Shown: positions 11,980 to 41,042 of the stretch, piece after piece
How the letters are laid out: each line of letters starts with the position of its first letter
Numbering within the stretch: the first letter of the stretch is position 1
Assembly (NCBI RefSeq): GCF_900130125.1
Contig: NZ_FQXY01000007.1
Span: forward strand, 372,001 to 436,000
DNA from: Bacteroides congonensis
GTDB taxonomy: Bacteria; Bacteroidota; Bacteroidia; Bacteroidales; Bacteroidaceae
Direction of reading: 5' to 3'
Length of the DNA: 64,000 nucleotides
The notes under the pieces: model-generated
Seen by the model: only the letters and a program-made list of their open reading frames with translations
Databases searched by the model: none
What the model was told of the DNA's origin: nothing
Made by a program: the position numbers and the translations under genes

Positions 11980-11990
11980 TTGGCTTTAGA

Positions 11991-12061: not shown

Positions 12062-12112
12062 GTTATTTCTCGTTTGCGGTTGCAAAGGTAGTACAAATTT
12101 TGAAATTACCAA

Positions 12113-14811: not shown

Positions 14812-14829
14812 AACTCTCAAAATTTTCGG

Positions 14830-14861: not shown

Positions 14862-14961
14862 TTATTTAGATTGTTTTTAAATAACAAGCTTTTTCGTATT
14901 CCAAGACACTGCCTGCAACTAAAAACAACGGTCATTCACTTGAGATACTTTAATAAACTAT

Positions 14962-14969
14962 TATCTTTG
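14962..14969 (+). promoter_or_regulatory. tilS -7 element next to the start codon
   Basis: TATCTTTG ends 6 nt before the ATG at 14976. Given the usual distance from this element to the start of transcription, the mRNA would have only a few 5' nucleotides. A weak TTGA at 14940 may serve as -33. Confidence 0.65.
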
Positions 14970-14975
14970 CAGAAT

Positions 14976-16256
14976 ATGATACAACAACGGATTAAACAGT
15001 ATATAGAAAAAGAGGATTTATTTTCTTCCGGCAGTAAAATCCTGATCGCATTGAGCGGCGGCGCCGACTCGGTGGCATTGCTATGCATCCTTCATGCGGC
15101 AGGTTATCCTTGTGAAGCGGCGCATTGCAATTTCCATCTGCGCGGCGAAGAATCAAACCGCGACGAGCAGTTCGTCCGCCAACTATGCAAGAAATATGGA
15201 ATCCATCTGCATACAATTGATTTTGACACTACCCGATACGCTGCCGAAAAACATATCTCCATCGAGATGGCAGCCCGTGAACTACGCTACAACTGGTTTG
15301 AAGAAATAAGAAACCAATGCCGTGCCGATGTCGTAGCAGTTGCCCATCATCAGGATGACAGTGTGGAGACGATACTGCTGAACCTGATCCGAGGAACAGG
15401 TATCACCGGATTATTGGGAATCCGCCCCCGCAATGGAGTTATCGTACGCCCGTTACTTTGTATCAACAGGGAAGAAATCATGCGATACCTGCAAAGCATC
15501 GGACAGGATTATGTGACAGACAGCACTAATCTGGAAGACGAATATACCCGTAACAAAATCCGGCTCAACCTTCTTCCGCTCATGCAGACCATTAATCCAT
15601 CCGTAAAAAACAGCCTGATAGAAACCAGCAATTACCTGAGTGATGTGGCTACTATATATAATAGGTATATAGAAGAAGCCAAAACGAGAATAGCCACAAC
15701 AGAAGGTATCCGAATCTGCGAATTAGTAAAAGAACCGGCACCCGAAGCACTTTTATTTGAAATACTACATCCATTGGGATTCAACTCCGCACAAATCAAA
15801 GACATCGTCCATTCACTTCACGGACAATCGGGAAAGCAGTTCAGCAGTAAAGAATGGAGAGTGATTAAAGACAGGGAGTTTCTTTTATTAGAAAAAATTC
15901 AGTCGGAAGATAAAGAAGAACTCCCTTTTCAAATCATCAAAGAAGAAAAAGAATATACTTCGGACTTTCAGATTCCACGAAAAAAGGGAACTGCCTGTTT
16001 CGACGCAGACAAACTGGACGAAACAATCTCTTATCGGAAATGGCGGACTGGCGATACCTTTATCCCTTTCGGAATGAAAGGAAAGAAAAAAGTAAGCGAT
16101 TATCTGACCGACCGCAAATTTTCTATCAGCCAAAAAGAACGCCAGTGGGTACTCTGTTGCGGAGAACGCATTGCGTGGTTGATAGGCGAACGGACAGACA
16201 ACCGCTTTCGTATTGATGAAACGACCCGACGTGTCGTTATCTATACAATAGTTTGA
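14976..16256 (+). CDS. tilS: tRNA(Ile)-lysidine synthetase
   Basis: ATG at 14976 ([16 protein letters not shown]) gives 426 aa; the longer frame from 14871 runs through the promoter. The N-terminal PP-loop ATPase has the SGGADS signature (about residues 22-27). The [19 protein letters not shown] motif and the C-terminal TilS domain ([20 protein letters not shown]) are present. The enzyme attaches lysine to C34 of the AUA-decoding tRNA-Ile and is essential. It probably has a nearly leaderless transcript. Its 3' end overlaps the convergent flavodoxin-ferredoxin gene by 16 nt, with no terminator between them. Confidence 0.95.
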
Positions 16257-17077
16257 GGAAGTTTCTGTTTCTTGAAGCAATCAGACAGTAATGTAGCAAA
16301 AGGAGTATCATATACCCTTGCCTTCTTGGTGCAGACTTTCACGCAGGCACAACATTTGATACATTTGGTTTCATCCGTATGCAATTCATTCCCTTTGGTA
16401 ATGGCTCCTACCGGACAATGCACCACACACAGTCCGCAATGAGTACACATACTTTCATCCTCCACCCAAGGAGTACGGGGAAGTGGCGTGCCGCTTTTGC
16501 GGAGCTTTATAACCTTCCTCAAAAAACGGAACAAAGGGAAGAAGGGTTGGGCCGGACGTCTGATGGCACGTACATCTACCGGATAAAGAGTATCCATACT
16601 ATCGGCAGTCTGTATTTTTTCTATTATTTTTGTTCCAAAATCCGTAGCGAAAGCCAAGTCGGCGTCATTAGGGCGTCCGGCGGCAATCGGATGCTTTTCG
16701 GTGCTGTAAGAGTGCTCTCCAATAAAAGTCGCCCCAGCAATCACTTTCAATCCGTGAGGAACGGCAAAAGCGTCCAGTTCCATCAAAGCTTTTTCATAAG
16801 CGCGGTTTCCATAAACCACGACTAAGACAGTAGGGGTATCCAGTCCGCGAATATTCTGCAAACGCTCCATTGCCAAAGGAGCAACATGTCCGCCATATAC
16901 AGGAACTACAATAACAGCCAATGCAGATGTGGGGATTACGATTTCCTCAGCACTCTGTTGAGTGACATTTACGGGAAGAATATTTTTTATGCCCGTTCCG
17001 TGAACAATCGCCTCCGCTATTTGTTTTGATGTGTGTGTAGGCGAAAAATAAATTAAATAAGCTTCATTTACTGTCAT
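16241..17077 (-). CDS. EFR1-type flavodoxin/4Fe-4S ferredoxin fusion
   Basis: ATG at 17077 ([19 protein letters not shown]) gives 278 aa. The N-terminal half is flavodoxin-like: [13 protein letters not shown] is the FMN phosphate-binding loop, and [16 protein letters not shown] follows. The C-terminus carries two 4Fe-4S motifs, [16 protein letters not shown] and [16 protein letters not shown]. It is a soluble electron carrier with unknown partner. It has its own -7 element at 17097. The tail overlaps tilS on the opposite strand. Confidence 0.88.
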
Positions 17078-17096
17078 ACTATTTTCTTTTATATAG

Positions 17097-17104
17097 CAAA
17101 GATA
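17097..17104 (-). promoter_or_regulatory. -7 element of the flavodoxin/ferredoxin gene
   Basis: TATCTTTG on the minus strand, 20 nt upstream of ATG 17077. Confidence 0.7.
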
Positions 17105-17157
17105 CACTTTTACGTGGAAAAAAATGGTTGATTGTTCATGAAACCAAAAAAAATTAT

Positions 17158-17165
17158 TATCTTTG
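17158..17165 (+). promoter_or_regulatory. rho -7 element with long leader
   Basis: TATCTTTG lies about 147 nt upstream of the rho ATG, giving a 5' leader of roughly 140 nt. In other bacteria rho is autoregulated by premature termination in its leader; the same here is inference. Confidence 0.6.
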
Positions 17166-17311
17166 CCCCGTTGAAACATTCTACGATTCAACACATACAT
17201 CCCTAATTCATAATAAAAAACAAAACGTATGCTTGCATATCTGTGGCTATAAGCTGTAGTAATGCTGTCCATAATTCAGCTAAAAGAAATATTAATAACT
17301 TACCATACTAT

Positions 17312-19555
17312 ATGTATAACATTATCCAATTAAACGACAAAGATCTGTCGGAGCTTCAAATTATTGCCAAAGAGTTAGGCATAAAAAAAGCAGACTCATT
17401 CAAAAAAGAAGACCTTGTTTATAAAATACTCGATGAACAGGCCATTGTAGGAGCTACTAAGAAAGTTGCCGCAGACAAACTCAAAGAAGAGCGCAAAGAA
17501 GACAAGAAAAAGCGTTCGCCGCGTGTAACTCCTGCCAAAAAAGAAGACAAGGCAGTTTCCGCAACAAAGAGTGGAGAAGTGGCAAAAAACAAAGAGGCTG
17601 CTCCTGCTAAAACACAACAACCTTCCAAAGAGGTAAGTGCAAACAAAGAAAAAGAAACTCCTGCCGTTGAAGCCAAAGCAGAAAACACTGCTGCTCCCAA
17701 ACGTAAAGTAGGCCGTCCACGCAAGGGTGCTGACGCTGCTGAGAAAAAAGAAGTAGAAAACGCCAAACCGGCAGCTACCAAAGAAGCGGAAGCAAAACCG
17801 GCTGTTGTAGCAGAAAAGCCTGCTGAAACTGCAAAGAAAGCCGCTCCGGTGCAACAACCTGCCGAAAAGAAAGAAAAAGAGAATAAACCGGTTACTGAAA
17901 CAAACAGACCTGTTGTGGAAGCAAACAAGCCTGCTGCAGAAGCCAACAAACCTGCTGCTGAAAAGAAAGTAATAGCAAAGCCACAAAAGAAAGCTGCACC
18001 TGTTATTGATGAGGAAAGCAATATCCTGTCCAATGCCGATGATGATGATTTCATCCCAATCGAAGACCTGCCTTCTGAAAAAATAGAGCTTCCTACCGAA
18101 CTGTTCGGTAAGTTCGAGGCTACCAAAGCAGAACCGGTACAAACGGCATCTGAACAGCCCTCTTCTCATCCGCAGCAGCAACAATCCCAGCAACAGCAGC
18201 AAGCTCAACAGCAACGTCCGCGTATTGTTCGTCCACGTGACAATAATAATAACAACGCCGGTAACAATAATAACAACAATAATAATTTCCAGCGCAACAA
18301 TAACCAAAATCAGAATCAGAACCAACAGCGCCTGCCTATGCCGCGTGGCAATCAGCAGAATAATGCTCATGAGAACCTTCCGGCACAGCAACCACAGGAG
18401 CGCAAAGTTATCGAGCGCGAAAAGCCTTACGAATTTGACGATATCCTCAACGGAGTAGGCGTTTTGGAAATCATGCAGGATGGATACGGATTCCTCCGTT
18501 CTTCTGATTACAATTACCTTTCTTCTCCGGACGATATTTACGTATCACAGTCACAAATCAAACTGTTCGGTCTGAAAACCGGTGATGTAGTAGAAGGTGT
18601 TATCCGTCCGCCAAAAGAAGGCGAAAAATATTTCCCGCTGGTCAAGGTATCGAAAATCAACGGACGTGACGCCGCTTTCGTTCGCGACCGCGTTCCTTTC
18701 GAACACTTGACTCCCCTCTTTCCGGATGAAAAGTTCAAACTTTGTAAAGGCGGCTATTCAGACTCTATGTCTGCCCGCGTTGTAGACCTTTTCGCTCCGA
18801 TTGGTAAAGGACAACGTGCATTAATCGTCGCCCAGCCAAAGACCGGTAAGACTATCTTGATGAAAGATATTGCAAACGCCATTGCAGCCAATCACCCGGA
18901 AGTGTATATGATTATGTTGCTGATTGACGAACGTCCTGAAGAAGTAACCGACATGGCGCGCAGCGTTAACGCGGAAGTTATCGCTTCTACTTTCGACGAA
19001 CCGGCAGAACGCCACGTAAAAATCGCAGGTATCGTATTGGAAAAAGCAAAACGTCTGGTTGAATGTGGTCACGACGTGGTTATCTTCCTCGATTCTATCA
19101 CTCGCCTTGCACGTGCATACAATACAGTTTCTCCGGCATCCGGTAAAGTACTTTCCGGTGGTGTCGACGCTAACGCACTGCACAAGCCCAAACGTTTCTT
19201 CGGTGCCGCACGTAACATCGAGAACGGCGGTTCACTGACTATCATCGCCACGGCCCTGATTGATACCGGTTCCAAGATGGACGAAGTTATCTTCGAAGAA
19301 TTCAAGGGTACGGGTAACATGGAGTTGCAGCTCGACCGCAACCTGTCCAACAAGCGTATCTTCCCGGCAGTCAACATCACTGCATCCAGTACTCGTCGCG
19401 ACGACCTGCTGCTTGACAAGACAACTCTCGACCGCATGTGGATATTACGCAAATACCTTGCCGACATGAATCCGATTGAAGCAATGGATTTCGTAAAAGA
19501 CCGTCTGGAAAAAACAAGGGATAACGACGAATTCCTGATGAGCATGAACAGCTAA
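17312..19555 (+). CDS. rho: Transcription termination factor Rho with large disordered insert
   Basis: ATG at 17312 ([16 protein letters not shown]) gives 747 aa, against about 420 for E. coli Rho. Residues 1-50 are the Rho N-terminal helical domain. Residues about 55-375 are low complexity: first Lys/Ala/Glu/Pro-rich with repeats such as [16 protein letters not shown], then Gln- and Asn-rich runs encoded by CAR/AAY repeats near 18170-18330. The cold-shock-like RNA-binding domain starts near 380, and the RecA-like motor has QPKTGKT (about 508-514) and [13 protein letters not shown]. Rho terminates untranslated or unneeded transcripts. The insert is a known Bacteroides feature, and for B. thetaiotaomicron Rho it has been reported to drive phase separation. 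Confidence 0.97.
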
Positions 19556-29895: not shown

Positions 29896-29970
29896 GGTGG
29901 ATGTAGTTCAGTTGGTTAGAGCGTCAGATTGTGGTTCTGAATGTCGCCGGTTCGAGTCCGGTCTTCCACC
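29896..29970 (+). tRNA. tRNA-His (GTG)
   Basis: The anticodon loop contains GTG (29930-29933 region). The extra G at -1 opposite C73 is encoded, as in all bacterial tRNA-His. The D arm AGTTCAGTTGGTTAGAGC and T arm GTTCGAGTC are standard. Its 3' part from 29926 is the left copy of the 46-bp attachment repeat, so the gene remains functional after integration. Confidence 0.95.
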
Positions 29971-29971
29971 C
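29926..29971 (+). repeat. attL, 46-bp direct repeat within tRNA-His
   Basis: Exact match to 40997-41042, covering the anticodon loop to the 3' end of tRNA-His. Sequence diverges immediately outside both copies. Confidence 0.95.
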
Positions 29972-29979
29972 CTAGAGAG

Positions 29980-30014
29980 AGTCCTTGTAAGTTAGATACT
30001 TATGAGGACTTTTT
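29980..30014 (+). terminator. Element-supplied terminator for tRNA-His
   Basis: AGTCCTTGTAAGT (29980-29992) pairs with ACTTATGAGGACT (29998-30010) with two weak positions and a 5-nt loop, followed by TTTTC. It lies 9 nt past the tRNA end, inside the element. Confidence 0.85.
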
Positions 30015-30078
30015 CTTTGTTGGTAGAGTATCATTCAGGTGCTAAATCTGGTATAAAATAACCTGTTAAAGTCCAATT

Positions 30079-30094
30079 GTTGGCTAATTGTTGG
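30079..30094 (+). repeat. Possible integrase arm-type site, left end
   Basis: GTTGGCTAAT followed by TGTTGG resembles the exact GTTGACTAAT tandem at 40915-40935 near the right end. Arm-type function is inferred from position at both ends. Confidence 0.4.
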
Positions 30095-30115
30095 TGGAAA
30101 ATTACAATACCTAAC

Positions 30116-31390
30116 ATGCTGACATTCAAGGTAGAAATCAGAAAGAATGAAATGAAAGTTGGTGGAACTTTCAATGTGAAGATTAGAGTAACCTATAACA
30201 GAGAGGTTAAGAGGTTGGCCACTCATATCTTTGTAAGAACAGAAGACCTGACTAAGGACTTCAAGCTAAAGAATCCAAAGTACATCAAGGAAGCTGACAA
30301 ATTGGTCAGATACTATGAAGAATTATGCATGGGGCTTCCATTAGAGGCTTCCAATTTAACCTTAAGTGATGTACTTGATTATATCCAGAAAGAGAAGGAG
30401 AAGAATACTCCTATTGATTTTATCCAGTTCTGTAAAGACTGGTTAGCAGCTACAGAGGTCAAGGGTAAGAGAAATTATCAAACTGCCCTTAATACCTTCA
30501 TTGCCTTCTTAGGAAAGGACAAACTGAATACCAACCAAGTTAGCAAGTTGTTAATGATGGAGTTCATGGAATACCTTCACAAGAAAAGGGCTAAACAGGT
30601 GGTAGAACTTCAGAAGAAAGGAAAGAGAATACCCTCTAATAGAATGGTATCTTTATACATGGGGAGTATCAGGCATCTATTCAATGAAGCCAAGAAGAAG
30701 TACAATGACTATGACAGGAATGTCATTAGAATACCTAATTCACCTTTTGAGAATTTGGAGATACCAAAGCAAGAAGCAACTAGGAAGAGAGCATTATCAG
30801 CAGAGTTAATCAAGAAGATATGGGAACTGCCTTATATCATCAATACCAATGGTAGGGAAAGGTTATGCCCCTTTAACCTTGCTAAGGATTGCTTTATCCT
30901 TTCTTTCTGTCTTATAGGGATGAACTCTGCTGACTTGTATAACTGTAGTGAACTGGAAGATGGTTCAATTACCTATTACAGGACTAAGACAACAGGCAGA
31001 AGACTCGACAAGGCTAAGATGAAAGTAGATGTTCTTCCTATCCTGTTACCTTTAATGAAGAAATATGAAGATTACACCCAGAAGAAGGTGTTCTGCTTCT
31101 ACCACTTATACTCAACCTATAAGAACTTCAACAGAGCCATCAATCTTGGGTTAAAGCAGATTGGCAAGATACTCAAAATTGATGATTTGGAGTACTATGC
31201 TGCAAGGCACTCATGGGCTACATTAGCTGTTAACAAAGTAGGTATAGATAAATATACAGTTCATGCTGCATTGAATCATATTGATGAGGCTATGAAAGTC
31301 ACTGACATCTATATTGAAAGAGACTTCAAGATAGAGAATGAAGCTAACAAGAAAGTGATTGAGTATGTATTTAGCAACCATAATGAGTAG
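30116..31390 (+). CDS. Tyrosine recombinase (integrase) of the tRNA-His element
   Basis: ATG at 30116 (MLTFKVEIRKNEMKVGG) gives 424 aa; the frame extends to 30077. It has an arm-binding domain (VKIRVTYNREVKRLATHIFV), a SAM-like domain (IDFIQFCKDWLAATEVKGKRNYQTALNTF in part) and a catalytic domain with YRTKTTGRR, ARHSWATLAVNKVG and the Tyr of VTDIYIERD. The first Arg site reads IGMNSADLYN, lacking Arg as in other Bacteroides integrases. Position next to attL identifies it as the enzyme that inserted this element into tRNA-His. Only one CG occurs in the whole gene. Confidence 0.92.
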   Translation: MLTFKVEIRKNEMKVGGTFNVKIRVTYNREVKRLATHIFVRTEDLTKDFKLKNPKYIKEADKLVRYYEELCMGLPLEASNLTLSDVLDYIQKEKEKNTPIDFIQFCKDWLAATEVKGKRNYQTALNTFIAFLGKDKLNTNQVSKLLMMEFMEYLHKKRAKQVVELQKKGKRIPSNRMVSLYMGSIRHLFNEAKKKYNDYDRNVIRIPNSPFENLEIPKQEATRKRALSAELIKKIWELPYIINTNGRERLCPFNLAKDCFILSFCLIGMNSADLYNCSELEDGSITYYRTKTTGRRLDKAKMKVDVLPILLPLMKKYEDYTQKKVFCFYHLYSTYKNFNRAINLGLKQIGKILKIDDLEYYAARHSWATLAVNKVGIDKYTVHAALNHIDEAMKVTDIYIERDFKIENEANKKVIEYVFSNHNE

Positions 31391-31511
31391 TCTTGTTCAA
31401 AAGTGAAGTAAGTTTAACACAAAAGAACCTCTGTAATTGATTGAATTATGGAGGCTCTTTAGTATATTTGTTCACTTACAATCTATATACTAATTACAAA
31501 CTAAGTGAGAC

Positions 31512-33620
31512 ATGAGCATAAAAGACAGACTGGCAAAAGAACAAGCAGAAGTAGTACCTAATACTTATGGTGACTTACATGATGCATCTGTAGAGTACAT
31601 TGAGATATTATCCTCTAGGAAAGTAGGAGAAACTAAAACCATACCTCAAGACACAATAATAACTAGTTTGGATAACTTACTATTTGGCAGACCACCAGAA
31701 GTAATAAGAGAAGAAGTTGGTGACTCCTTCTGGAATCTGGCTAACTTCATAGATAAGATGCCTCATGGGTTAGTAGACAAGAAGATACCCGGCATTGGAG
31801 CCACTACCCTTGAGATAAACTCAAAGAGAAACTCAATCATAGTCCTTCCTACTAAGGCTCTGGCTTATGGTAAACACTCAAAGCATCCTAATACATTATA
31901 TGTAGGTAGTGAGATTAAAGGTGAAAAGGTCACTAATCAGCAGATTGAGGAATACTTGGCTAAAGATGGATACAAGAAACTTCTAGTAGTTGCAGACAGC
32001 CTAGGTAGGTTATTAGGTATCATAGGTAAAAACTATAGAGACTACTTCCTTATGATTGATGAGGTTGATGTTCTCCAGACTGACAACAACTTCAGACCCC
32101 AATTGGAGAATGTGATTGACTACTACTGTATGTTCCCATCAAAGAACAGATGTATGGTAACAGCTACCATGAAGGAGTTCAGCAATCCACTACTAAAGAA
32201 AGAATGTAAGTTCTCCATAACTTGGACATATAATGCCCGAAGAGATGTTAGGTTATTGCACACTAACAATATCACTCAGACTGTTATAGAAGAGATTATC
32301 TCCCATTCTATAGAGAAGATATTCATTGCCTATAACTCCATACTCCAGATAAGAAACATTATAGCATCACTAGATGAAGAAACCAGAAAGGAATGTGCTA
32401 TCCTATGTAGTGAGGCATCCATAAAGGAAGCAGGAGAATATTTTGCACCTAAACTAGGAGACAATAATACCTTACCTGCTAGGATTAATTTTGCCACTTG
32501 TTGCTACTTTACTGGTATAGATATAGAGGATAGTTACCATTTAATCACTGTATCAGATGTAAGAAGAAGCCACTCAATGTTGACCTTAGATAGGATGACA
32601 CAAATACATGGCAGATGTAGAAAAGATAATGGAGTATTAAGTGAAACTATCATATATAATACCTTAGGGTATGTATCAGTAATGGAAAGCATGGAAAAGT
32701 ACACCATTACCCTATTGAATAAAGCTAAGAAGGTACTCAAAGTAATAGATTCAGCAGATGATATTATGCAAGGTGACTATACCTTGATTGACCTATTTGC
32801 AATGGTTAAAGAAGCCATAAGAGAGAAAGCACAAGAAAGGATTGCAGGGAATGAGTTAATTAATCTAATTAGACAGAATGTGGATGGAGAATATGTACCT
32901 GCCTACCTCAACATAGATTACATCATTGAAAGAACCGACTTATATGCCTCATATTTTATGCCTGAAACCTTGAAAGAAGTACTAGGTAAACAGGTTAAAA
33001 TCATTAGCTACAAATCCCTATCTTATGATGTTTCTCCAGAACAAAACAGCATAGAGAAAACCAATAAGGATGCACAGAATAAGTTGACAGATAGTTACAT
33101 TCAAGAAGCCATAGATAGCATCAAAGTATTATCAACCACAGGGCAGTTGAATGATAATACCTTGTACTCATATACTAGACATTGCAGAAGTAAAACTAAG
33201 ATATTCTTAGAGAGATTCATCAAGCTATATAGGTATGTTGACCTTGATAGTCTACTACATCAACTATGGGAGATTAGAACAAGTAACAGTATAGTTTATA
33301 AGAACCTCAATAATGCAGTCATGTATTGGGCACTAGATGAAGAGCATCCTTTCAAGGTTGCAATAAGAAGAAGTTTCACCTTAAATAAGAGCTATTCAGC
33401 AAGTGAGATACAAGAGATATTAGCTCCTATAGTCCAGTATCATCTACACAAGATACTGAAACCTAGAAAATATGTAGCCCTATTGAGAAGCATATATGCC
33501 ACTGACAGGACATCTAGGAATAAGTACACCATCAGAGAAGAGAATCCTAGAGGATTTAAAGAACATACTGGCAGGATATCTACCAAAGAGAATAATTTGT
33601 TAAGGCTATTTATGTTATAG
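31512..33620 (+). CDS. Divergent superfamily 2 helicase
   Basis: This 702-aa protein has SF2 motifs: an unusual P-loop KIPGIGATTLE (residues 91-101), motif Ia-like IIVLPTKALAYG, DEVD (motif II, 183-186), TATM (motif III, 217-220) and QIHGRCRK (motif VI pattern QxxGRxxR) in the second RecA domain. The P-loop GIGATT replaces the usual GxGKT, with no Lys, a form seen in some viral replicative or origin-binding helicases. Whether it hydrolyses ATP is not certain. The C-terminal 270 residues have no family I know. It is likely the replicative or origin-unwinding protein of the element. The gene is extremely poor in CG. Confidence 0.75.
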   Translation: MSIKDRLAKEQAEVVPNTYGDLHDASVEYIEILSSRKVGETKTIPQDTIITSLDNLLFGRPPEVIREEVGDSFWNLANFIDKMPHGLVDKKIPGIGATTLEINSKRNSIIVLPTKALAYGKHSKHPNTLYVGSEIKGEKVTNQQIEEYLAKDGYKKLLVVADSLGRLLGIIGKNYRDYFLMIDEVDVLQTDNNFRPQLENVIDYYCMFPSKNRCMVTATMKEFSNPLLKKECKFSITWTYNARRDVRLLHTNNITQTVIEEIISHSIEKIFIAYNSILQIRNIIASLDEETRKECAILCSEASIKEAGEYFAPKLGDNNTLPARINFATCCYFTGIDIEDSYHLITVSDVRRSHSMLTLDRMTQIHGRCRKDNGVLSETIIYNTLGYVSVMESMEKYTITLLNKAKKVLKVIDSADDIMQGDYTLIDLFAMVKEAIREKAQERIAGNELINLIRQNVDGEYVPAYLNIDYIIERTDLYASYFMPETLKEVLGKQVKIISYKSLSYDVSPEQNSIEKTNKDAQNKLTDSYIQEAIDSIKVLSTTGQLNDNTLYSYTRHCRSKTKIFLERFIKLYRYVDLDSLLHQLWEIRTSNSIVYKNLNNAVMYWALDEEHPFKVAIRRSFTLNKSYSASEIQEILAPIVQYHLHKILKPRKYVALLRSIYATDRTSRNKYTIREENPRGFKEHTGRISTKENNLLRLFML

Positions 33621-33759
33621 AAGGTTAATATGTGACTAAATAAATGATAAGAATATTGGTATTATAGACTTTATTTGTTATATTTACAACTGATAATCAG
33701 ATACTTATAGAAGTAATACACCTCTAATATGGCATTGGCTATCAACAGAATTAACCTTA

Positions 33760-33837
33760 GGGTCAAATATCACCCTATACTAATTACCTTTAATCCTTTA
33801 TTACTGTAGGTAATTAGTATGGAGTGGATTTTGACCC
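33760..33837. repeat. 30-bp imperfect inverted repeat, origin or operator candidate
   Basis: Left arm 33760-33789 (from GGGTCAAA to ATACTAATTACCT) and right arm 33808-33837 pair at 25 of 30 positions around an 18-nt AT-rich loop. It ends 17 nt before the ATG of the winged-helix-like gene. There is no T-run, so it is not a terminator. A replication origin or an operator for the neighbouring DNA-binding protein is plausible. Confidence 0.7.
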
Positions 33838-33854
33838 CTCTAAAATAAGAATTA

Positions 33855-34529
33855 ATGGCAACAGTTAAGCAATTCACTATCATCCCCATTGAAGCTTGCA
33901 GGTACTTCAATCCAAAGCAACTCTACCTATTAGCAGGTCTCTATATTAATGCCTATCCCCAAAGGGAAAGCAACTACATGACAACAAATACTACTATCAG
34001 TCAGTTGTCAGAGCTTACAGGAGTAAGTACAAGTTATATCAAGGATTCCTTTATCCCCAGACTAAAGGAGCTAGAAGATAAAGGATATAGAGTAGAGACT
34101 ATACAGCCGCAAAAAGAGATTAGAAGGAACATCTATTATCTACCTAACCCTCCTAAGAATTTCAGAATTATATGGGCAGAGTTATTCAGTGACAGCTCTT
34201 TAGGTCCAGAAGAGAAAGGAGTTATGATAGGGTTATATTGCCTTTGTGTTAACAATGAGTTCAGAATAGACCTATCAGACAAAGCCATTTATAGTCACTT
34301 GGATATGGCAAAGAACACATATAAAAAGTATAGGGACTTATTGATTGAGAAGAAAGTAATCTGGTCTTCCCATGATGTTCCAATGGCACTAACATGGACT
34401 GAGCACATGGAAGCTAAAGTCCTTCTGTACCCTCACTTGGGTCACGATACTTGGATAGACAAAGTTATATCACATGTACCAGATGATGATGAAATCAAGC
34501 ACTACCTTGATACTGTTAATGATGAATGA
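33855..34529 (+). CDS. Winged-helix-like protein, possible replication initiator or regulator
   Basis: This 224-aa cytoplasmic protein looks like two helix-turn-helix units: TISQLSELTGVSTSYIKDSF (about residues 47-66), then LSDKAIYSHLDMAKNTYKKY (about 142-161). This arrangement is seen in plasmid and element replication initiators and in DnaD-like regulators. I do not recognise the exact family. The position, directly behind a long inverted repeat and a helicase gene, favours a role in element replication or control. It has only two CG dinucleotides. A stem-loop (34547-34578) follows. Confidence 0.55.
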   Translation: MATVKQFTIIPIEACRYFNPKQLYLLAGLYINAYPQRESNYMTTNTTISQLSELTGVSTSYIKDSFIPRLKELEDKGYRVETIQPQKEIRRNIYYLPNPPKNFRIIWAELFSDSSLGPEEKGVMIGLYCLCVNNEFRIDLSDKAIYSHLDMAKNTYKKYRDLLIEKKVIWSSHDVPMALTWTEHMEAKVLLYPHLGHDTWIDKVISHVPDDDEIKHYLDTVNDE

Positions 34530-34546
34530 ATGATACATACCCCAAT

Positions 34547-34578
34547 ATCCCCTGTTTTCCCACCAGAAGGCAGGGGAT
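34547..34578 (+). terminator. Stem-loop after the winged-helix-like gene
   Basis: ATCCCCTG (34547-34554) and CAGGGGAT (34571-34578) form an 8-bp stem. The following T-rich stretch is weak (TTGCTTTATAT), so it may be a modest terminator or processing site. Confidence 0.5.
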
Positions 34579-34771
34579 TGCTTTATATGTATATAACTAA
34601 TATATAGCAATTCCTACTGTCATCTGATATACAGTCTCTCTGATATTTTTAATTTTTATTTTAAATTTCTGCAAACTTGATATCTACAAGTGCACTCTAA
34701 GTCACAAAGTCTCCCTCCCCTTACCTTAGGAGTGGGATATCCCCCTCTGCAACAATAATAAAAAAACAATT

Positions 34772-35041
34772 ATGGAAAAGTTAAAGTTCTTAGAGACAGT
34801 GACAGTGAATGAGTTTAAGGCTCAAAAGGGAGTAAGTAAGATTGAAGTAAAGCAGAATCCTCATACAGGGAAGTGCTTCTTTGTTTATGGCTGTGAAACT
34901 GGTGCAGTAAGTGACAAGTTTCTTAATGGAGAAGTAACCAATCCTGTTATCTCTCAAGTATGTTCACCAGATACAGGTGACATGTTCTATATGCTGCACC
35001 AAAGAGGTGAAGGTGGAGCTATGACATTGGCAACTTTATGA
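34772..35041 (+). CDS. Small conserved-looking protein, unknown function
   Basis: This 89-aa soluble protein begins MEKLKFLETVTVNEFKAQKG. It has no membrane segment, no Cys pairs suggesting metal binding and no known domain that I can see. Coding potential is supported by its position as a separate cistron: promoter-like sequence and the ATCCCCCTCTGC motif upstream, and a strong terminator 23 nt after its stop. It may be an accessory protein of the element's recombination module, but that is guesswork from neighbourhood. Confidence 0.6.
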   Translation: MEKLKFLETVTVNEFKAQKGVSKIEVKQNPHTGKCFFVYGCETGAVSDKFLNGEVTNPVISQVCSPDTGDMFYMLHQRGEGGAMTLATL

Positions 35042-35063
35042 TGGTTGTTAATGTAGACCTCAA

Positions 35064-35097
35064 GGAGGCAAGTTTATTAGGACTTGCTTCCTTTTTT
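35064..35097 (+). terminator. Intrinsic terminator
   Basis: GGAGGCAAGT (35064-35073) pairs with ACTTGCTTCC (35082-35091) with one G-U, followed by TTTTTT. Confidence 0.88.
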
Positions 35098-35136
35098 CTT
35101 TATAGATTATACATCAACTATTAATATTATTCAGAT

Positions 35137-36024
35137 ATGTTGAACTTAAGAGTTTCATCCAAGAAGCAGGCTAAAATTAAGCTTGCTTTACAAGGCTGCG
35201 CAGGTTCAGGTAAGACCTATTCTGCATTACTTTTAGCTTATGGTTTATGTAATGACTGGACTAAGATAGCCATCATTGATAGTGAACATGGAAGTGCTGA
35301 CCTTTATGCTCATTTAGGTGCTTATAATGTATTAAGTCTAAGTGATAATTTTACACCTGAAACTTATATACAAGCTATTGAAATATGTGAAGGTGCAGGC
35401 ATGGAAGTTATCATAATTGATAGCATCTCACAGTGTTGGGATAACTTGCTTGAATACCATGCAGGTCTACAAGGTAACAGCTTCACTAATTGGCAGAAGG
35501 TGACACCCAGAATCAATGCTTTCATGCAGAAAATATTGCAGTCTGGAAGCCATATTATATGCACTATGAGATGTAAACAAGACTATGTTTTAAGTGAGAA
35601 GAATGGCAAGATGATACCGGAGAAAGTAGGACTTAAAGCAGTCATGAGAGATGGTATTGATTATGAGTTTACCATAGTCTTTGACATCAACATGAAGCAC
35701 CAGACTATTGCATCTAAAGACAGGACAAACCTGTTTATAGGTAAGCCAGACTTTACCATTACACCTGCTACAGGTCAGATAATACTTGATTGGTGTAATG
35801 ATGGTGTCAATCTGGAGATGATAAGGAGCAAGATTAACAGCAGCAAGACCATTGAAGAACTGACTGCCATCTATCATCAATTTCCTGAATGGTATCAGCA
35901 GTTAACATCAGAATTCATGCAGAAGAAAGCAGCACTTCAGGTACAAAAGAATCAACAAACTATTAACTATACCCCTAATTACGTTAGATATGGAAATAAT
36001 GCAGTTGCAGCCAGTCAGAGCTAA
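35137..36024 (+). CDS. Sak4-like RecA-fold ATPase
   Basis: The 295-aa protein has Walker A GCAGSGKTYSA (residues 20-30), Walker B VIIIDSIS (about 90-97), a sensor-like ICTMRCKQDY and the DYEFTIVFDINMKHQTIASKDRTNLF stretch typical of phage Sak4/AAA ATPases (shown in parts). Such proteins assist single-strand annealing or strand exchange during phage and element DNA replication. It overlaps the DUF3871 gene by 35 nt and both are followed by RadC, giving a recombination operon. An annealing partner is not obvious; DUF3871 is a candidate. Confidence 0.8.
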   Translation: MLNLRVSSKKQAKIKLALQGCAGSGKTYSALLLAYGLCNDWTKIAIIDSEHGSADLYAHLGAYNVLSLSDNFTPETYIQAIEICEGAGMEVIIIDSISQCWDNLLEYHAGLQGNSFTNWQKVTPRINAFMQKILQSGSHIICTMRCKQDYVLSEKNGKMIPEKVGLKAVMRDGIDYEFTIVFDINMKHQTIASKDRTNLFIGKPDFTITPATGQIILDWCNDGVNLEMIRSKINSSKTIEELTAIYHQFPEWYQQLTSEFMQKKAALQVQKNQQTINYTPNYVRYGNNAVAASQS

Positions 36025-37075
36025 TCTGATATACCCTAATAGAAATAAGGTAGATAATCCTTATATTCAAACAGTTGAGCCAATAGAAATCATCAATACA
36101 GGCATTATATCAACAAATCCTGTAGAAGCTGAACCAATAAGCACCAGAGAAGGCAATAAGTTACCTTTTATTGAAGCTAATACAAAGGAAGTAACCATGC
36201 AGTACCTCAAGGAAGAATGTATCACACCTGTGTTCTCTAAAGATAATGAGGTTACTATATCACATTCCAGTTTCATTGAAACAGTATGGGAAGCAGCCAA
36301 TAAGGTGTTCTCCAATGAGAGAATAGAAGAACCTGCCATCAGGGTAAGCCATGTTATCAAAGGCAGAATACCGGAAGCTATTCATAAACCTGTGAATCAA
36401 TTACTGGAATCTGATAAAACCATTTACTTTGAGAGAATGATGTTCTGTTTTGAGATACCTACCATATATGAGGATATTGCAGGTAACAGACTGAATTTAA
36501 CCATAGGTGGAGTTAGGGCTTATAACCATGAGAACCTCTACAGTAAGAAAGGTGCAGAGAAGTTCAAGGTATTCATAGGTTTCAAGAACTTAGTCTGCTG
36601 TAACATGTGTGTATCAACAGATGGTTACAGGTCAGAATTAAAGGTTATGAGTACAACTGAACTATTCAATGTAGTGATGAGGCTGTTCCAAGAGTACAAT
36701 ATAGCCCAGCACTTGTATTACATGTCAGCTTATAAGGATACTTATATGAGAGAGTCCCAATTTGCCCAGTTCTTAGGCAGATGCAGATTATATCAGTTCT
36801 TGCCTGTAGACCAGAAGAAGAAGTTACCACAGATGCTGATGACTGATACCCAGATAGGATTAGTAGCCAAAGCATATTACAATGATGATAACTTTAGCAC
36901 CCTTCTGGACAGCAGGGAAATCAGCATGTGGAATGTGTACAACTTACTAACTGGAGCTAATAAAAGTAGTTACATTGATAACTTCTTGGACAGGTCACTT
37001 AATGCCACCCAATTGGCTGAAGGACTTAATAAGGCTTTATATGGTGAAAATGAATATAGTTGGTTCATTAATTAG
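35990..37075 (+). CDS. DUF3871-family protein
   Basis: This 361-aa protein starts MEIMQLQPVRANLIYP. The N-terminal 130 residues are variable and probably flexible. The conserved part from about 140 includes FCFEIPTIYEDIAGNRLNLTIGGVRAYNHENLY, KFKVFIGFKNLVCCNMCVST and FAQFLGRCRLYQFLP, which I associate with DUF3871, a Bacteroidetes mobile-element family of unknown function. It is always found near element ATPases and RadC-like genes in my recollection. It overlaps its upstream neighbour, and RadC begins at its stop codon, so the three are coupled. Confidence 0.75.
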   Translation: MEIMQLQPVRANLIYPNRNKVDNPYIQTVEPIEIINTGIISTNPVEAEPISTREGNKLPFIEANTKEVTMQYLKEECITPVFSKDNEVTISHSSFIETVWEAANKVFSNERIEEPAIRVSHVIKGRIPEAIHKPVNQLLESDKTIYFERMMFCFEIPTIYEDIAGNRLNLTIGGVRAYNHENLYSKKGAEKFKVFIGFKNLVCCNMCVSTDGYRSELKVMSTTELFNVVMRLFQEYNIAQHLYYMSAYKDTYMRESQFAQFLGRCRLYQFLPVDQKKKLPQMLMTDTQIGLVAKAYYNDDNFSTLLDSREISMWNVYNLLTGANKSSYIDNFLDRSLNATQLAEGLNKALYGENEYSWFIN

Positions 37076-37539
37076 TGCATCTTATGGATAATATAATGAA
37101 TGTATCAGAGGTTCAATTGAGCTATAAAAGCAATGTCAAATCATCAACTAGATACAAGATAAATAGCTCACAGGATGCCTATGAACTATTGATAAAGTGC
37201 TTCCCTGATGATACAATAGGTTACAGGGAAAGCTTTAAAGTGGTACTACTTAATCAGTCTAACAGAGTACTGGGTATAGTACCTATTTCAGAAGGTGGAA
37301 TCTCTGCTACTTATGTAGATGTAAGGCTGATATTACAAGCTGCCTTGCTGGCTAATGCAACACAGATAATATTGGCACATAATCACCCTTCTGGAAGCAT
37401 GAAACCCAGTACTCTGGATGATGCTTTGACTGAAAAAGTAAGGAAGGTGGCTGAACTCATGGAAATTCATGTAGCAGACCATATAATCCTAAATCCAGAG
37501 AAGGAGTACTATTCCTATAATGATGAAGGTAGATTATAA
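37075..37539 (+). CDS. RadC-like JAMM-domain protein
   Basis: Either GTG 37075, overlapping the DUF3871 stop, or ATG 37084 is the start (154 or 151 aa). The JAMM metalloprotease motif is complete: HNHPSG then Asp after ten residues (H-x-H-x10-D, ending STLDD), with a preceding Glu in GYRESFKVVLLNQ. Only the C-terminal JAB part of RadC is present, the form common on mobile elements, where it is often annotated as DNA repair or anti-restriction. Its true role is not established. It is the last gene of the recombination operon. Confidence 0.88.
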   Translation: MHLMDNIMNVSEVQLSYKSNVKSSTRYKINSSQDAYELLIKCFPDDTIGYRESFKVVLLNQSNRVLGIVPISEGGISATYVDVRLILQAALLANATQIILAHNHPSGSMKPSTLDDALTEKVRKVAELMEIHVADHIILNPEKEYYSYNDEGRL

Positions 37540-37863
37540 ATACTTAACCTTCTAAGGTCTACATTACCCTACCTTCTATTAAATCCATCCCCCTCTGCTA
37601 TTATTATACCATTATGATGGGAAATTTTGAAAATCTCACTCTCTTACATGTTATATATACAAAGTAAGTGATGCAGAATAGCAAATCAGAGGATGGTTTA
37701 ATAGAGGTTGACTGCCTCTTTTAATACAAGTTGATGATGTTTGATTATAGGATAGAGAGAAGTGCTGCTATAATTACTTAACCACTTGAGGTTCGGTGAA
37801 GTATGTAAACATGAATTATAGCAATAGTTAGTAAGTTAGACTAAATTAAATGTTGATTGAATT

Positions 37864-37926
37864 ATGTGTGAGATTATCTTAATTCTGGTAGGGTTTGTCC
37901 TCACTAGTATGATACTTAAGGATTAA
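37864..37926 (+). CDS. Tiny hydrophobic ORF, 20 aa
   Basis: The peptide MCEIILILVGFVLTSMILKD would be a single membrane helix with a short charged tail, similar in outline to type I toxin peptides. No Shine-Dalgarno or clear promoter is seen. It could be chance in AT-rich DNA. Confidence 0.25.
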   Translation: MCEIILILVGFVLTSMILKD

Positions 37927-38011
37927 GAGGTTATATGCCTCTTACTATGTGATTTTATTGTTGTTGATAGCCCTAGTTCTGTAATGGACTGGGGCTTTAA
38001 CTAGTGTATAT

Positions 38012-38095
38012 ATGACAGCATTAGATATGATATTACAGTGGTTCATATTAATAGCTACTGGTGCTCTATTTATCAATTGGGCATACAGAAAATGA
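38012..38095 (+). CDS. Tiny hydrophobic ORF, 27 aa
   Basis: The ORF begins MTALDMILQWFILIATGALF and ends INWAYRK: one membrane helix with a basic C-terminus. This is the second such ORF within 150 bp. Expression is unproven; no sequence family is recognised. Confidence 0.25.
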   Translation: MTALDMILQWFILIATGALFINWAYRK

Positions 38096-38209
38096 ATAAT
38101 TAAGCCTACCTTTGTGCAATAAGGATATAAGCCTACACCTATGGTACTGATATGGCTTTAAACCTATTAAATTATGACTGTCAAATGATGAAGTATTACT
38201 GGAAAGTTC

Positions 38210-38217
38210 TATCTTTG
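38210..38217 (+). promoter_or_regulatory. -7 element for the cargo block
   Basis: TATCTTTG followed by CAG. Transcription from here would give a leader of about 270 nt containing the long stem-loop before the ORF at 38483. Confidence 0.65.
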
Positions 38218-38294
38218 CAGCAGTATTAATTAAATGACAACTAATGAAATAGAAGTTTAACAAGACATATTAGAAAAGAAGTGTTTGCTTCTTG

Positions 38295-38439
38295 CTTGAT
38301 GTTATCAGAGAAATCGCCAATTTCAATCAGATATAACCATCAAAAGCAGGTTAGTGAATGCTCATACCTATATAGGTGTGGGCTTTCCTTGTTTGCATGG
38401 TTATAGGTGTTTGGCGATACCTTCTGATAAGCAATCAAG
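38295..38439 (+). ncRNA. Long nested stem-loop leader, riboregulator or recombination-site candidate
   Basis: Ordered complementary blocks form one long interrupted stem. CTTGAT (38295) pairs with ATCAAG (38434), TTATCAGA (38302) with TCTGATAA (38423), ATCGCCAA (38313) with TTGGCGAT (38411), and ATAACCAT (38333) with ATGGTTAT (38397). Inside is the palindrome ACCTATATAGGT (38366). Downstream GCTCACACCT (38444-38453) can pair instead with AGGTGTGGGC (38374-38383), and CTTTTT follows, suggesting a terminator/antiterminator alternative. An open frame also crosses it (from 38354), so a translated leader is possible. Confidence 0.65.
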
Positions 38440-38482
38440 GTTAGGCTCACACCTTCTTTTTGTAGTATGGCTACAAAAGGAA

Positions 38483-39376
38483 ATGATTATGGAATTACTT
38501 GAAGTGAAGAATGAATTATTAAACGATGGAACGAAATATACTGGTCCTCTTTTAATAGAGAACAAGTATAAACTACCTCATGGATATGGAAAGAAAGAAT
38601 ATCCTAGTTATTATGTCATAGGAAAGTTTGATAGGGGTACTTTAAATGGTCCTGCTTACATTAATCATCATCATTATATGATGACAAGTCAGATGAAGAA
38701 CAATAGGGGGAATGGATGGGGAATGATGATAAATGGCGGAGTCTTAACATTTGGAGTATATAAAAGTAGCCAGTTGGTGCTTAATCTCACCAATTTTGTA
38801 GAATGGTATTTTGATAAGATATTAGAATCCAATTATCGAGATACTATGTTTCATTATTATCCAAAAACAGGTGAAATATTAATTGGGATTCCAAGTAGAA
38901 AATATGACGATACTATTTCTAGCAACTTCATGGGATTCCATTTTATGGATGATGGAAGTGTCTATGTTGGTACTACTGCTAACCTTAAAAAGACAGGTTC
39001 TTTAATAAAATTCAACAATAATGGATATATTGAGATTGGCAAATGGGTTGACGGAAATTTAATTGAAAAATTGTCTATTTCTGATATATTGGATTTATAC
39101 TGGGGAATGGATGAAGATGATGCCTCCTTATTTGCAAGTCTCCTTCCTCCTAATATGAAACGTAGAAAGTATAGTAAAATAAGTATTGATTGCAATATAA
39201 ACTATTTTCAGGCACAAGAGAATTTAGCTGATTCTGCATATCATTCAATTCTTAATAAGAAGAATACTCATAATGACTACAATGGCAGCTATGTTCAAGA
39301 TGTTATGGGATATGATGACGCTACCATAAGTGACGCTTTTGAAGGAGACCCAGATGCTTACTGGAACATAGATTGA
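38483..39376 (+). CDS. MORN-repeat-like cargo protein
   Basis: ATG 38483 (or 38489) gives about 297 aa. MORN-like strands occur near the N-terminus (LPHGYGKKEYPSYYVIGKF, DRGTLNGPAYI) and centre (GSVYVGTTANLKKTGSLIKF, GYIEIGKWVDGNL). The C-terminal 90 residues are acidic and Asn/Asp-rich with no recognised domain. No signal peptide. It heads a three-gene cargo block whose CG content is clearly higher than the element backbone, so it was probably acquired separately. Function unknown; MORN repeats usually mediate binding to lipids or proteins. Confidence 0.6.
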   Translation: MIMELLEVKNELLNDGTKYTGPLLIENKYKLPHGYGKKEYPSYYVIGKFDRGTLNGPAYINHHHYMMTSQMKNNRGNGWGMMINGGVLTFGVYKSSQLVLNLTNFVEWYFDKILESNYRDTMFHYYPKTGEILIGIPSRKYDDTISSNFMGFHFMDDGSVYVGTTANLKKTGSLIKFNNNGYIEIGKWVDGNLIEKLSISDILDLYWGMDEDDASLFASLLPPNMKRRKYSKISIDCNINYFQAQENLADSAYHSILNKKNTHNDYNGSYVQDVMGYDDATISDAFEGDPDAYWNID

Positions 39377-39399
39377 TTACTAACTTTAATATATATAAT

Positions 39400-39831
39400 A
39401 TGGAATTTCCTTTATACTGGGGACTGCAAAAGACAGGTTTACCCCTTATTGTTGTTACTTGTACTGCTGATACAGGAACAACCAGAGAATTGTGCTTGTT
39501 AATTGATACAGGTTCTACCAACAACATATTGTTCAGCTTTGTATATGAGCATTTTCAGAAGAACTTCAAATCATTAGATAAGCAAGGTTCTATTATGGGG
39601 TTTGAAGGTCAGCAACATGAGACACCACAGATAGAAGCCACATTTGACTTTGAGGGGAAGAATTATACTTCAATTTTCTCTGTATTAGATGTATCTGATG
39701 GTATGAAACATGTACAAGAAGAATCTGGAGTACAGATACATGGGGTTTTAGGAATCCATTTTTTAGTGGATAACGAGTGGATTATTGACTTCAAACAACT
39801 TAACATTGCGGATGGTTATGAAAAAGTATAA
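39400..39831 (+). CDS. Retropepsin-like aspartic protease
   Basis: ATG at 39400 (MEFPLYWGLQKTGLPLIVV) gives 143 aa; a TTG at 39373 is the only longer start. The active-site motif is LCLLIDTGSTNNILF (Asp36-Thr-Gly), followed by a flap-like region and the family's second signature, hydrophobic-Gly with Leu, in GVQIHGVLGIHFLVDNEWIIDF (shown as parts GVLGIHFL and WIIDF). Length fits a single-lobed protease working as a dimer, like retroviral protease and bacterial relatives. It lies 23 nt after the MORN-like gene and overlaps a lipoprotein gene, so the three probably act together. No substrate can be predicted. Confidence 0.75.
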   Translation: MEFPLYWGLQKTGLPLIVVTCTADTGTTRELCLLIDTGSTNNILFSFVYEHFQKNFKSLDKQGSIMGFEGQQHETPQIEATFDFEGKNYTSIFSVLDVSDGMKHVQEESGVQIHGVLGIHFLVDNEWIIDFKQLNIADGYEKV

Positions 39832-40345
39832 CATTATTTATCTTATAACATTAATCCTAACTCTCAACATAGGATGTACAGGAAAACAAAGAGCGGAGCA
39901 ATCTAATAGTATTACAGTTGAGAATGGTACTGTTATTGAAAATGTTCTTACTGAAAAATTAGGTACAATAGTCAATACAAAATGGTCTACTTATAAATAT
40001 AGGTCTCATTTTAAAGATATGGGTGCACAGGATAATAATATAGAAATGTACTCAAAGCTTATCAAAGATGAGTCAGGTAGCTATAATAATTTAGCTATTG
40101 ATATATATGTTAAGAATGACTCTATTGTATGGCAAGGCTGTAGCATGCCTTTTGATTATGAAGAATTTATTAAATATGATAGTTTACTATTGGACTGTAT
40201 TCCTAATAATGTAATTGGGGATTTCACTCCAGAAGATAAGTTTTGGAGTAGACAATACTTCTTTGATGAGTTTTATGTGCAAGTAGGTAGGATGAATACT
40301 AATTATTATGTGCATTATTATTCAAGGGCATTTAGAAAGTATTGA
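39818..40345 (+). CDS. Small lipoprotein of unknown function
   Basis: ATG at 39818 (MKKYNIIYLITLILTLNIGC) gives 175 aa and overlaps the protease stop by 14 nt. The signal peptide ends in a lipobox (LNIGC, Cys20), so the mature protein is membrane-anchored on the periplasmic or outer face. The rest is Tyr/Asn/Asp-rich beta-strand-like sequence with no family I recognise. Its place after a cytoplasmic-looking protease and MORN protein suggests a multi-component cargo with one exported member. Confidence 0.6.
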   Translation: MKKYNIIYLITLILTLNIGCTGKQRAEQSNSITVENGTVIENVLTEKLGTIVNTKWSTYKYRSHFKDMGAQDNNIEMYSKLIKDESGSYNNLAIDIYVKNDSIVWQGCSMPFDYEEFIKYDSLLLDCIPNNVIGDFTPEDKFWSRQYFFDEFYVQVGRMNTNYYVHYYSRAFRKY

Positions 40346-40497
40346 TTCTTAAATTTAACACTAGTCCATTAGCTCAATACGGCACTATACCAAATCCAAA
40401 GCCTAACAAATGGTCTGGTATCCTGATGATAGCAGGTACAGCCTTACTAATCATCATCATGGTGGTACTGACAATCATTGCCAGTTCTCATATGTAG
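40342..40497 (+). CDS. Possible 51-aa membrane peptide with TTG start
   Basis: The frame reads LAQYGTIPNPKPNKWSGIL, then a hydrophobic helix MIAGTALLIIIMVVLTIIAS, and stops at TAG 40495. The only start-like codon is TTG 40342, overlapping the lipoprotein end. The clear separation into a polar Pro/Asn N-part and one membrane helix suggests a real or recently decayed small protein. Confidence 0.35.
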   Translation: MILKFNTSPLAQYGTIPNPKPNKWSGILMIAGTALLIIIMVVLTIIASSHM

Positions 40498-40752
40498 AAA
40501 GAAAAAGGCAAATGAAGTATTTCAAGTAAGTTACTTTGAATACTTGCAACCCTGACCTTATTAAAGCTCTGATAGGGTATTTACACTCATGCCTACTTAT
40601 ACCAAATGGACATCTATTGAATGACACTTTAAACTAATTAAGTTATGAAACAGAAGGAAGAAACTTAGCACAGTCCAAGTGCTATTGGTAGCATGATATT
40701 AGCATAATAGTAATGTAAGAAGAGTTCAACTACAACATAAAGTTAGAGATTG

Positions 40753-40783
40753 TTTGGAGAACCAAACATATTCACTATATTTG
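40753..40783 (+). promoter_or_regulatory. Strong promoter with no ORF behind it
   Basis: TTTG (40753-40756), a 19-nt spacer and TATATTTG (40776-40783) match the Bacteroides consensus. Only a five-codon ORF (MKKAP) follows before multiple stops, implying a non-coding transcript toward attR. Confidence 0.65.
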
Positions 40784-40789
40784 CATTAA

Positions 40790-40990
40790 TAATTAAAATC
40801 AAAAGTAATGAAGAAAGCACCTTAGAGTTTAACAGTGATTAGCAGGTAAACCTGTTATACTGACACCATATAAAATGGTGGAGAAGCTAGCCAAATTAGT
40901 AGCAATACTATCATGTTGACTAATAGTTGACTAATGAGCTAGCAAGGAGATATTTAACTTGCTGACAGTTGAGACCACTATAAGGCTACT
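40790..40990 (+). ncRNA. Candidate small RNA at the element's right end
   Basis: Downstream of the promoter are a CAGGTAAACCTG palindrome, CACCAT/ATGGTG hairpin arms around ATAAA, and a larger imperfect stem between AGCTAGCCAAATTAGT (40886-40901) and ACTAATGAGCTAGC (40930-40943). There is no protein-coding frame. It could be an RNA or simply the protein-binding arm region of the attachment site. Confidence 0.4.
40915..40935 (+). repeat. Tandem GTTGACTAAT, arm-type site candidate
   Basis: Two exact copies of GTTGACTAAT (40915-40924, 40926-40935) lie about 60 bp inside attR. A near copy occurs at 30079 near attL. Confidence 0.55.
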
Positions 40991-40996
40991 CGTTAA

Positions 40997-41042
40997 AGAT
41001 TGTGGTTCTGAATGTCGCCGGTTCGAGTCCGGTCTTCCACCC
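40997..41042 (+). repeat. attR, 46-bp direct repeat of the tRNA-His 3' end
   Basis: Identical to 29926-29971. It is a tRNA fragment lacking the D arm and 5' acceptor strand, so not a functional tRNA. Confidence 0.95.

Follow-up and report, generated by a model that had tools for sequence, protein, structure and literature searches.

Loss of CG dinucleotides from a tRNA-integrated Bacteroides element and from crAss-like phages is consistent with selection by a host restriction-type defence

An integrated element located beside a tRNA-His gene of Bacteroides congonensis (contig NZ_FQXY01000007.1 of assembly GCF_900130125.1) is nearly devoid of CG dinucleotides. We analysed it within a 64,000-nucleotide stretch of this contig (positions 372,001 to 436,000, hereafter the window), in which the element occupies positions 29973-40996 and holds 27 CG in 11,024 bases versus 340 expected, along with 338 GC. 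The CG loss is real and large, it is fixed in one clade of related elements and it arose independently in crAss-like phages that are unrelated to the element. We assign a probability of about 0.5 to the reading that incoming DNA with bare CG is selected against in Bacteroides hosts, probably via a putative restriction-like defence; that selection rather than deamination removed the CG is well supported.

Results

Extent of the CG loss

A sequence-only reading of the window had noticed some 11 CG in 8.2 kb at about 35% GC content, where hundreds would be predicted. Indeed, the interval that it named (30061-38280, 36.1% GC) contains exactly 11 CG and 262 GC dinucleotides, corresponding to symmetrised observed/expected ratios of 0.04 and 0.98, respectively, and 1000 mononucleotide shuffles of this interval returned a mean of 265 CG (standard deviation 13.5, minimum 225). 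The flanking chromosome is rich in CG as it had held (1.09 on the left, 1.01 on the right). The interval itself lies within the CG desert and is shorter than it: no CG begins anywhere in 29960-31005 and the desert extends rightwards to the second attachment (att) repeat at 40997. A left island described as full of CG is certainly not CG-free, yet two of its AT-rich kilobases (window 3001-5000, GC 0.31-0.32) are mildly low in CG at 0.59-0.73.

Within and between codons CG is equally low, at positions 1-2 (0.074), 2-3 (0.077) and 3-1 (0.096), and five noncoding stretches are at 0 to 0.11. Low GC content or codon bias alone is ruled out by this uniform loss inside codons, across their boundaries and in noncoding DNA, together with a GC dinucleotide ratio of 0.98; the observation that GC in the other order is common had already been made from the sequence, as had the near-exclusive use of AGA and AGG for arginine (112 of 116 codons in mechanically chosen open reading frames [ORFs] of the element). 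A partial exception within the element is the gene at 38489-39376, with 9 CG and a ratio of 0.38. An assembly artefact is unlikely, because an independent Bacteroides metagenome-assembled genome (MAG) has an equally CG-poor relative beside the same tRNA-His gene, with the same neighbouring genes as the window and the one confirmed relative in genome contigs of the element's 702-residue protein (63% identity). Likewise, a chromosome-wide mutational regime is ruled out by five other full loci in the same genome (L074-L078) that encode DUF3871, a family also present in the element, and that stand at 0.40-0.58 (nine matches in all, three partial copies not being scored). At L101, too, one chromosome has a CG-poor stretch with integrase similarity (about 2000-6000) directly abutting a DUF3871 element (6000-17900) at about 0.7-1.0, which argues against such a regime as well.

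Replacement of the lost CG

If methyl-CpG had been deaminated, whether in a former host or in an extrachromosomal phase, C before G at fourfold degenerate sites should have turned into T. In five CG-free elements, third bases at fourfold sites before G fell from 22 to 2% for C and rose from 33 to 49% for A and from 36 to 41% for T, giving a chi-square of 121 against replacement by T only and of 20 against proportional removal, and in the flanks A is not preferred before G (23.5% vs 25.1%). Proportional removal also fitted better than C-to-T only in the phages crAss001 (chi-square 26 vs 61) and DAC17 (7 vs 23) and in moderately depleted elements (12 vs 112). In NCN codons it is C and T that take the place of the lost G, with no rise in A; this is weaker evidence, as the flanks likewise favour C and T. 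Arginine is retained as AGR (462 codons vs 24 CGN; R, A or G) in the CG-free elements, at a content of 3.96% compared to 4.77% in the flanks.

Deamination would fit the modest rise of TG/CA that the sequence-only reading had proposed as its sign (1.17 in the element vs 1.02-1.04 in the flanks), as well as the changes between the closest pairs of sequences that we take up in the Discussion, yet AG/CT is raised more (1.25 vs 0.88-0.91). Moreover, 86 of 128 CG single-base differences among six aligned sequences are transitions, compared to 714 of 1030 for the GC control (counts summed over 15 non-independent pairs), and thus no transition excess over GC is seen overall. On the basis of the fourfold replacement pattern, the retention of arginine as AGR and the absence of this excess, we reject deamination as the source of the composition and consider it extremely improbable. 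The statement that such CpG suppression is expected in vertebrate DNA is misleading: vertebrate DNA has a CG ratio of roughly 0.2, while the 0.04-0.08 seen here is lower and comes with another replacement pattern. Vertebrate CpG suppression and processes like repeat-induced point mutation resemble the element in their low CG, but they leave C-to-T products, and C-to-T is not the main replacement in the element.

Restriction-site words and CG contexts

Three further words are nearly absent from the element, namely GATC (0 vs 35 expected), GGCC (1 vs 14) and CCWGG (0 vs 13; W, A or T), as is typical of restriction-site-avoiding DNA. The five CG-free elements together (49.7 kb) contain 0 GATC (166 expected), 4 GGCC (65), 5 CCWGG (58) and 58 CTAG (234), and five moderately depleted elements have 0 GATC, 4 CTAG (247 expected) and 2 GGCC (79). 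Host flanks avoid GATC (32 of 220 expected) and CTAG (10 of 113) but not CG, and a mildly depleted locus (L090, CG 0.90) still has 0 GATC in 8 kb. The loss of GATC, GGCC and CCWGG is a fingerprint of restriction-site avoidance. According to the passages available from PMC10333322, lineages of B. ovatus methylate GATC and B. thetaiotaomicron methylates CCWGG, with hundreds of methylated motifs in the Bacteroides fragilis group as a whole. Avoidance of Type II sites is established in phages, elimination being rarer in temperate ones (PMC6286503, available passages); near-elimination in an element that integrates therefore suggests that this element may change hosts frequently.

The CG contexts separate the two grades of depletion. 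In the moderate elements CCGG (0.05) and CCGA/TCGG (0.06) are scarcest, followed by TCGA (0.17), GCGC (0.18) and ACGT (0.20), with ACGA/TCGT best tolerated at 0.52, and palindromic sites make up 14.5% of the surviving CG (n = 622) compared to 24.1% in the host of the window. In the CG-free elements, by comparison, every one of the 16 NCGN contexts lies at 0.04-0.13 and the palindromic share of surviving CG is 28.5% (n = 123); it is 38.5% in depleted phages (n = 122, excluding the initial 5.8 kb of crAss001). Moderately depleted elements thus lose palindromic CG sites first and CG-free ones lose every context.

The moderate elements look like a stage of a process in which an element of wide host range loses CG sites one after another to the union of many ordinary Type II systems, and the hundreds of motifs in the group likewise speak for such a union. 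However, the CG-free elements are evenly depleted, ACGA/TCGT has become their lowest context at 0.04, and palindromes are not under-represented among their surviving CG, so that we hold this explanation to be rather unlikely. The even loss over contexts speaks for an agent that reads bare CG rather than for many ordinary sites added together, and on this evenness a single such agent is plausible.

CG loss in crAss-like phages

The crAss-like phage crAss001 contains only 87 CG in 99.7 kb (44 in the first 50 kb, ratio 0.03, and 43 in the second 49.7 kb), one GATC in the stretches covered (all but 3 kb) and, in its first part, 579 AGR versus 1 CGN arginine codons. We sampled 16 crAss-like stretches out of 115 matching records and found five at 0.03-0.07: crAss001 (0.03), DAC17 (0.03), frurule (0.07), cr126 and cr85. 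The others comprise cr111 (0.18), Dulem virus 41 (0.40) and nine at 0.47-0.95, and four more stretches, chosen because they share the protease described below, gave 0.03, 0.09, 0.11 and 0.23. Cellulophaga phage phi14:2 (0.54) and an Azobacteroides phage (0.68) are not strongly depleted. GATC loss and CG loss are separable, as cr128 has GATC at 0.61 and CG at 0.23. The first 15 kb of Bacuni_F1, the part covered, display a different avoidance profile, with 0 GATC, CATG, CTAG, GANTC and CCWGG at normal CG.

Members of the Crassvirales subfamily Asinivirinae (crAss001, DAC17, frurule) resemble the element in their near-zero CG, mostly few GATC and a homologous small aspartyl protease, and they differ from it in being tailed phages of about 100 kb; crAss001 matches no other protein of the window. 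The same CG loss thus arose independently in phages unrelated to the element.

The phage data also bear on selection at the RNA level, by which an RNase or sensor would attack CG in transcripts in the manner of the vertebrate zinc-finger antiviral protein. Strand cannot separate this explanation from one acting on DNA, since CG is its own reverse complement, and most of the element may be transcribed. Depletion nevertheless extends to the noncoding stretches and to the structured, clustered tRNA genes of crAss001 (18 CG vs 79 expected in 23 genes, compared to 141 vs 188 in 31 tRNAs of host loci, some of them near-duplicates), and palindromic DNA sites are gone from the same genomes. We therefore judge RNA-level selection to be improbable.

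CG loss in one clade of elements

Whether homologous elements are all CpG-poor had been posed as a check, and the answer depends on the clade. DUF3871 is matched in 53 of 158 genus genomes, and we determined CG profiles for 40 of more than 100 places. Around the DUF3871 gene the ratio ranges from 0.00 (L106) to 0.92; L106 is CG-poor over 10 kb (0-0.18) and L102, a remnant without its own integrase, over 5 kb (0.03-0.15). In a tree of 44 DUF3871 proteins, the window's protein and those of L106, L102, L041, L040 and L039 form one clade (support 100/100). The genes of these six members, from two genera, have ratios of 0.00-0.10, and the other 38 are at 0.30 or above. As the window and L041 are only about 70% identical in DNA, the trait has outlived much divergence: CG loss is fixed in this clade and has persisted through about 30% DNA divergence.

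Other proteins of the element lead to further CG-poor loci. The 702-residue protein is matched in 29 of 301 family genomes (its own included), the best two others being 39% and 32% identical. The 32% relative lies beside a tRNA-Met gene in a CG desert of more than 12 kb with flanks at about 1.2-1.4, and the contig of the 39% relative is of mixed composition, varying from 0 to 0.9 between 500-base segments. The element's ATPase is matched in 9 of 399 family genomes and 8 of 393 order genomes (own included in both). Its locus in a third genus (L184) is strongly CG-poor (0.12 over 8 kb, flanks about 0.6-0.9), L190, from another family, is at 0.31, L183 is mixed, and L185-L189 are milder or mixed, with kilobase values of 0.2 to 1.2 that include host DNA. 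L040 (6802-8487) and L184 (11031-12605) encode a protein of 524-561 residues with polymerase-like motifs by eye and a weak match to PHROG 4756; a search of solved structures with the protein of this type from L040 gave no sequence match.

A shared aspartyl protease

A retropepsin-like aspartyl protease (39400-39831, plus strand) is the only window protein that matches crAss001 at a phmmer E-value of up to 1 (8.4e-10, Gp66; L195 20496-21011), and it also matches the PADLOC candidate defence family PDC-M08B. Each of the five CG-free elements for which the right-hand part was available has it (window, L041, L106, L102 and L040), and it is present in L183-L186 and, crAss001 apart, in no other locus compared. 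Of 50,697 phage records 47 have it, the 40 matches listed being crAss-like or Dulem virus 41; plasmids gave no match.

That CG-free elements and crAss001 have this putative defence protein in common would fit self-protection, whereby element and phages would have to lack CG because a weapon or sensor that they themselves encode is directed at it. DNA reading is not expected of a protease, however, crAss001 shares no further protein with the window, and L185 and L186 carry the family with CG at 0.45 and 0.62 around it. As these two loci are not CG-free, the protease is not a sufficient marker of CG loss, and self-protection appears highly unlikely.

Borders and gene content of the element

The tRNA-His gene (29897-29972, plus strand; ARAGORN, Rfam) contains attL in its 3' end (29926-29971), and an exact 46-bp copy forms attR (40997-41042), both on the plus strand and detected by repeat comparison. 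A tyrosine recombinase adjoining a tRNA gene, with the 3' end of that tRNA directly repeated at either border, identifies a site-specific integrative element. All its genes are on the plus strand. The integrase of 437 residues (30077-31390; Pfam PF13102, 1.2e-7; PHROG integrase, 0.0019) is followed by the SF2/DEAD-type helicase-like protein of 702 residues (31512-33620; Pfam DEAD, 8.3e-7), which had no sequence match among solved structures and whose low-confidence model (pLDDT 55) has a DEAD-box helicase as its best Foldseek hit (E 6e-5, TM-score 0.15). Downstream lie a putative replication initiator of 224 residues (33855-34529; weak match to PHROG 270, 1.2e-5), an 89-residue ORF product (34772-35041) with a similar ORF in L041, the AAA_24/Sak4-like ATPase of 295 residues (35137-36024; Pfam 2.4e-18, PHROG 1366 4.6e-74), the DUF3871 protein (35990-37075; Pfam 2.4e-142) and a RadC-like JAB protein (37075-37539; Pfam 1.1e-36). 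The next 943 bp (37540-38482) have no assigned gene and no Rfam match and may harbour an origin or an RNA. The right-hand part holds an accessory module, in which an accessory protein ORF (39812-40345), similar to one in L106, follows the protease.

The accessory gene at 38489-39376 is MORN-like by eye, with no Pfam or PHROG match. Its product is unrelated to the WG-repeat product of L102 8247-8873, although both genes lie just upstream of the protease and both C-termini show a similar short motif by eye (FEGD...YWNI). A full homolog in CG-rich DNA was not found among the 158 genus genomes, three others of which match the last 39-48 residues only.

Relaxase or type IV secretion genes were not detected among the 10 element proteins (Pfam, PHROGs, PADLOC, NCBIfam), and there was no convincing match to capsid, portal or terminase, the one terminase match (E 0.028) falling on the helicase. 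Its predicted gene content is that of a small integrative element equipped with DNA-metabolism genes of its own. Searches of viral contigs with three window proteins returned no relatives, and a 4.25-kb record named 'Bacteriophage sp.' from human faeces in Mexico encodes an ATPase 95% identical to that of the window. The record might stem from the Mexican virus-like particle study PMC8361208, whose available passages do not give its accession; this link is a guess.

Discussion

Of the three explanations offered by the sequence-only reading, the best fit is escape from a restriction-type system that recognises CG, since the loss is blind to the type of substitution, GATC, GGCC and CCWGG are lost along with CG, and unrelated crAss-like phages show the same loss. 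Deamination fails on the codon and pairwise tests, and avoidance of immune detection in the animal host would leave it unexplained that the loss is confined to some elements and phages. The likeliest selecting agent is a restriction-type host defence. We propose that CG was purged from this tRNA-integrated Bacteroidaceae element by selection rather than by CG-specific mutation, with a host defence of this type acting on foreign DNA as it enters or replicates and reading bare CG. Each CG lost would improve the odds of establishing in a new host, and host changes would be frequent enough that a stay in a CG-rich chromosome does not restore CG. A further and more tentative proposal is that a widespread, undescribed Bacteroides defence reads bare CG in foreign DNA, the CG-free elements and crAss-like phages being its footprint.

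Several observations weigh against selection by such a defence. No CG-reading enzyme was found: of 27 C5 methyltransferases of the genus (PF00145 is matched in 84 of 158 genomes, and 27 ORFs were extracted from 30 loci), the two compared with solved structures are both nearest HhaI and not entry 4dkj, which we take to be a CG enzyme. The literature passages contained no report of CG methylation in the Bacteroides group. CG is at normal levels in the host flanks, so that self DNA would have to be protected, and one CG cannot be lethal, given the 27 that remain in the element. Proportional removal, though better than C-to-T, is an imperfect fit (chi-square 20 and 26), and among the three closest pairs transitions account for 15 of 16 CG changes, compared to 105 of 129 for the GC control; these small numbers leave room for a transition-biased mutation input. 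On the phage side, a host is recorded for only three of ten depleted stretches, each time Bacteroides (crAss001, DAC17 and frurule), and of the six phages tested for which a Bacteroides host is recorded, three have normal CG: B40-8 (1.16), annotated with two DNA methyltransferases, B124-14 (1.16), with none annotated, and Bacuni_F1 (1.18). Finally, almost all depleted phages come from a single subfamily and hence represent few independent events.

The closest precedents differ in what is lost and by which DNA. In the available passages of PMC6286503, phages eliminate words read by host restriction and avoid GATC, as the element does, but these are orthodox Type II sites in mostly non-temperate phages, whereas here a bare dinucleotide is lost in every context from a carrier that integrates. 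Motif depletion in the Bacteroides fragilis group (PMC10333322) likewise proceeds without hypermutation products, with GATC and CCWGG among the methylated motifs, but in the passages available it concerns host genomes and other motifs, the two mentions of CpG referring to eukaryotes; in those of PMC13037316, CpG is an unrelated abbreviation. A literature search that left subscription journals mostly uncovered turned up no description of Bacteroides elements or crAss-like phages losing CG.

Two unrelated kinds of mobile DNA tied to a dominant gut genus have thus converged on CG loss from every context, at a real coding cost. This convergence indicates that gene flow and phage infection are under a strong, general pressure, one that is not explained by the restriction motifs named in the literature passages available and that could help to explain the host range of crAss-like phages. 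If true, a defence against bare CG would be a bacterial counterpart of CpG sensing.

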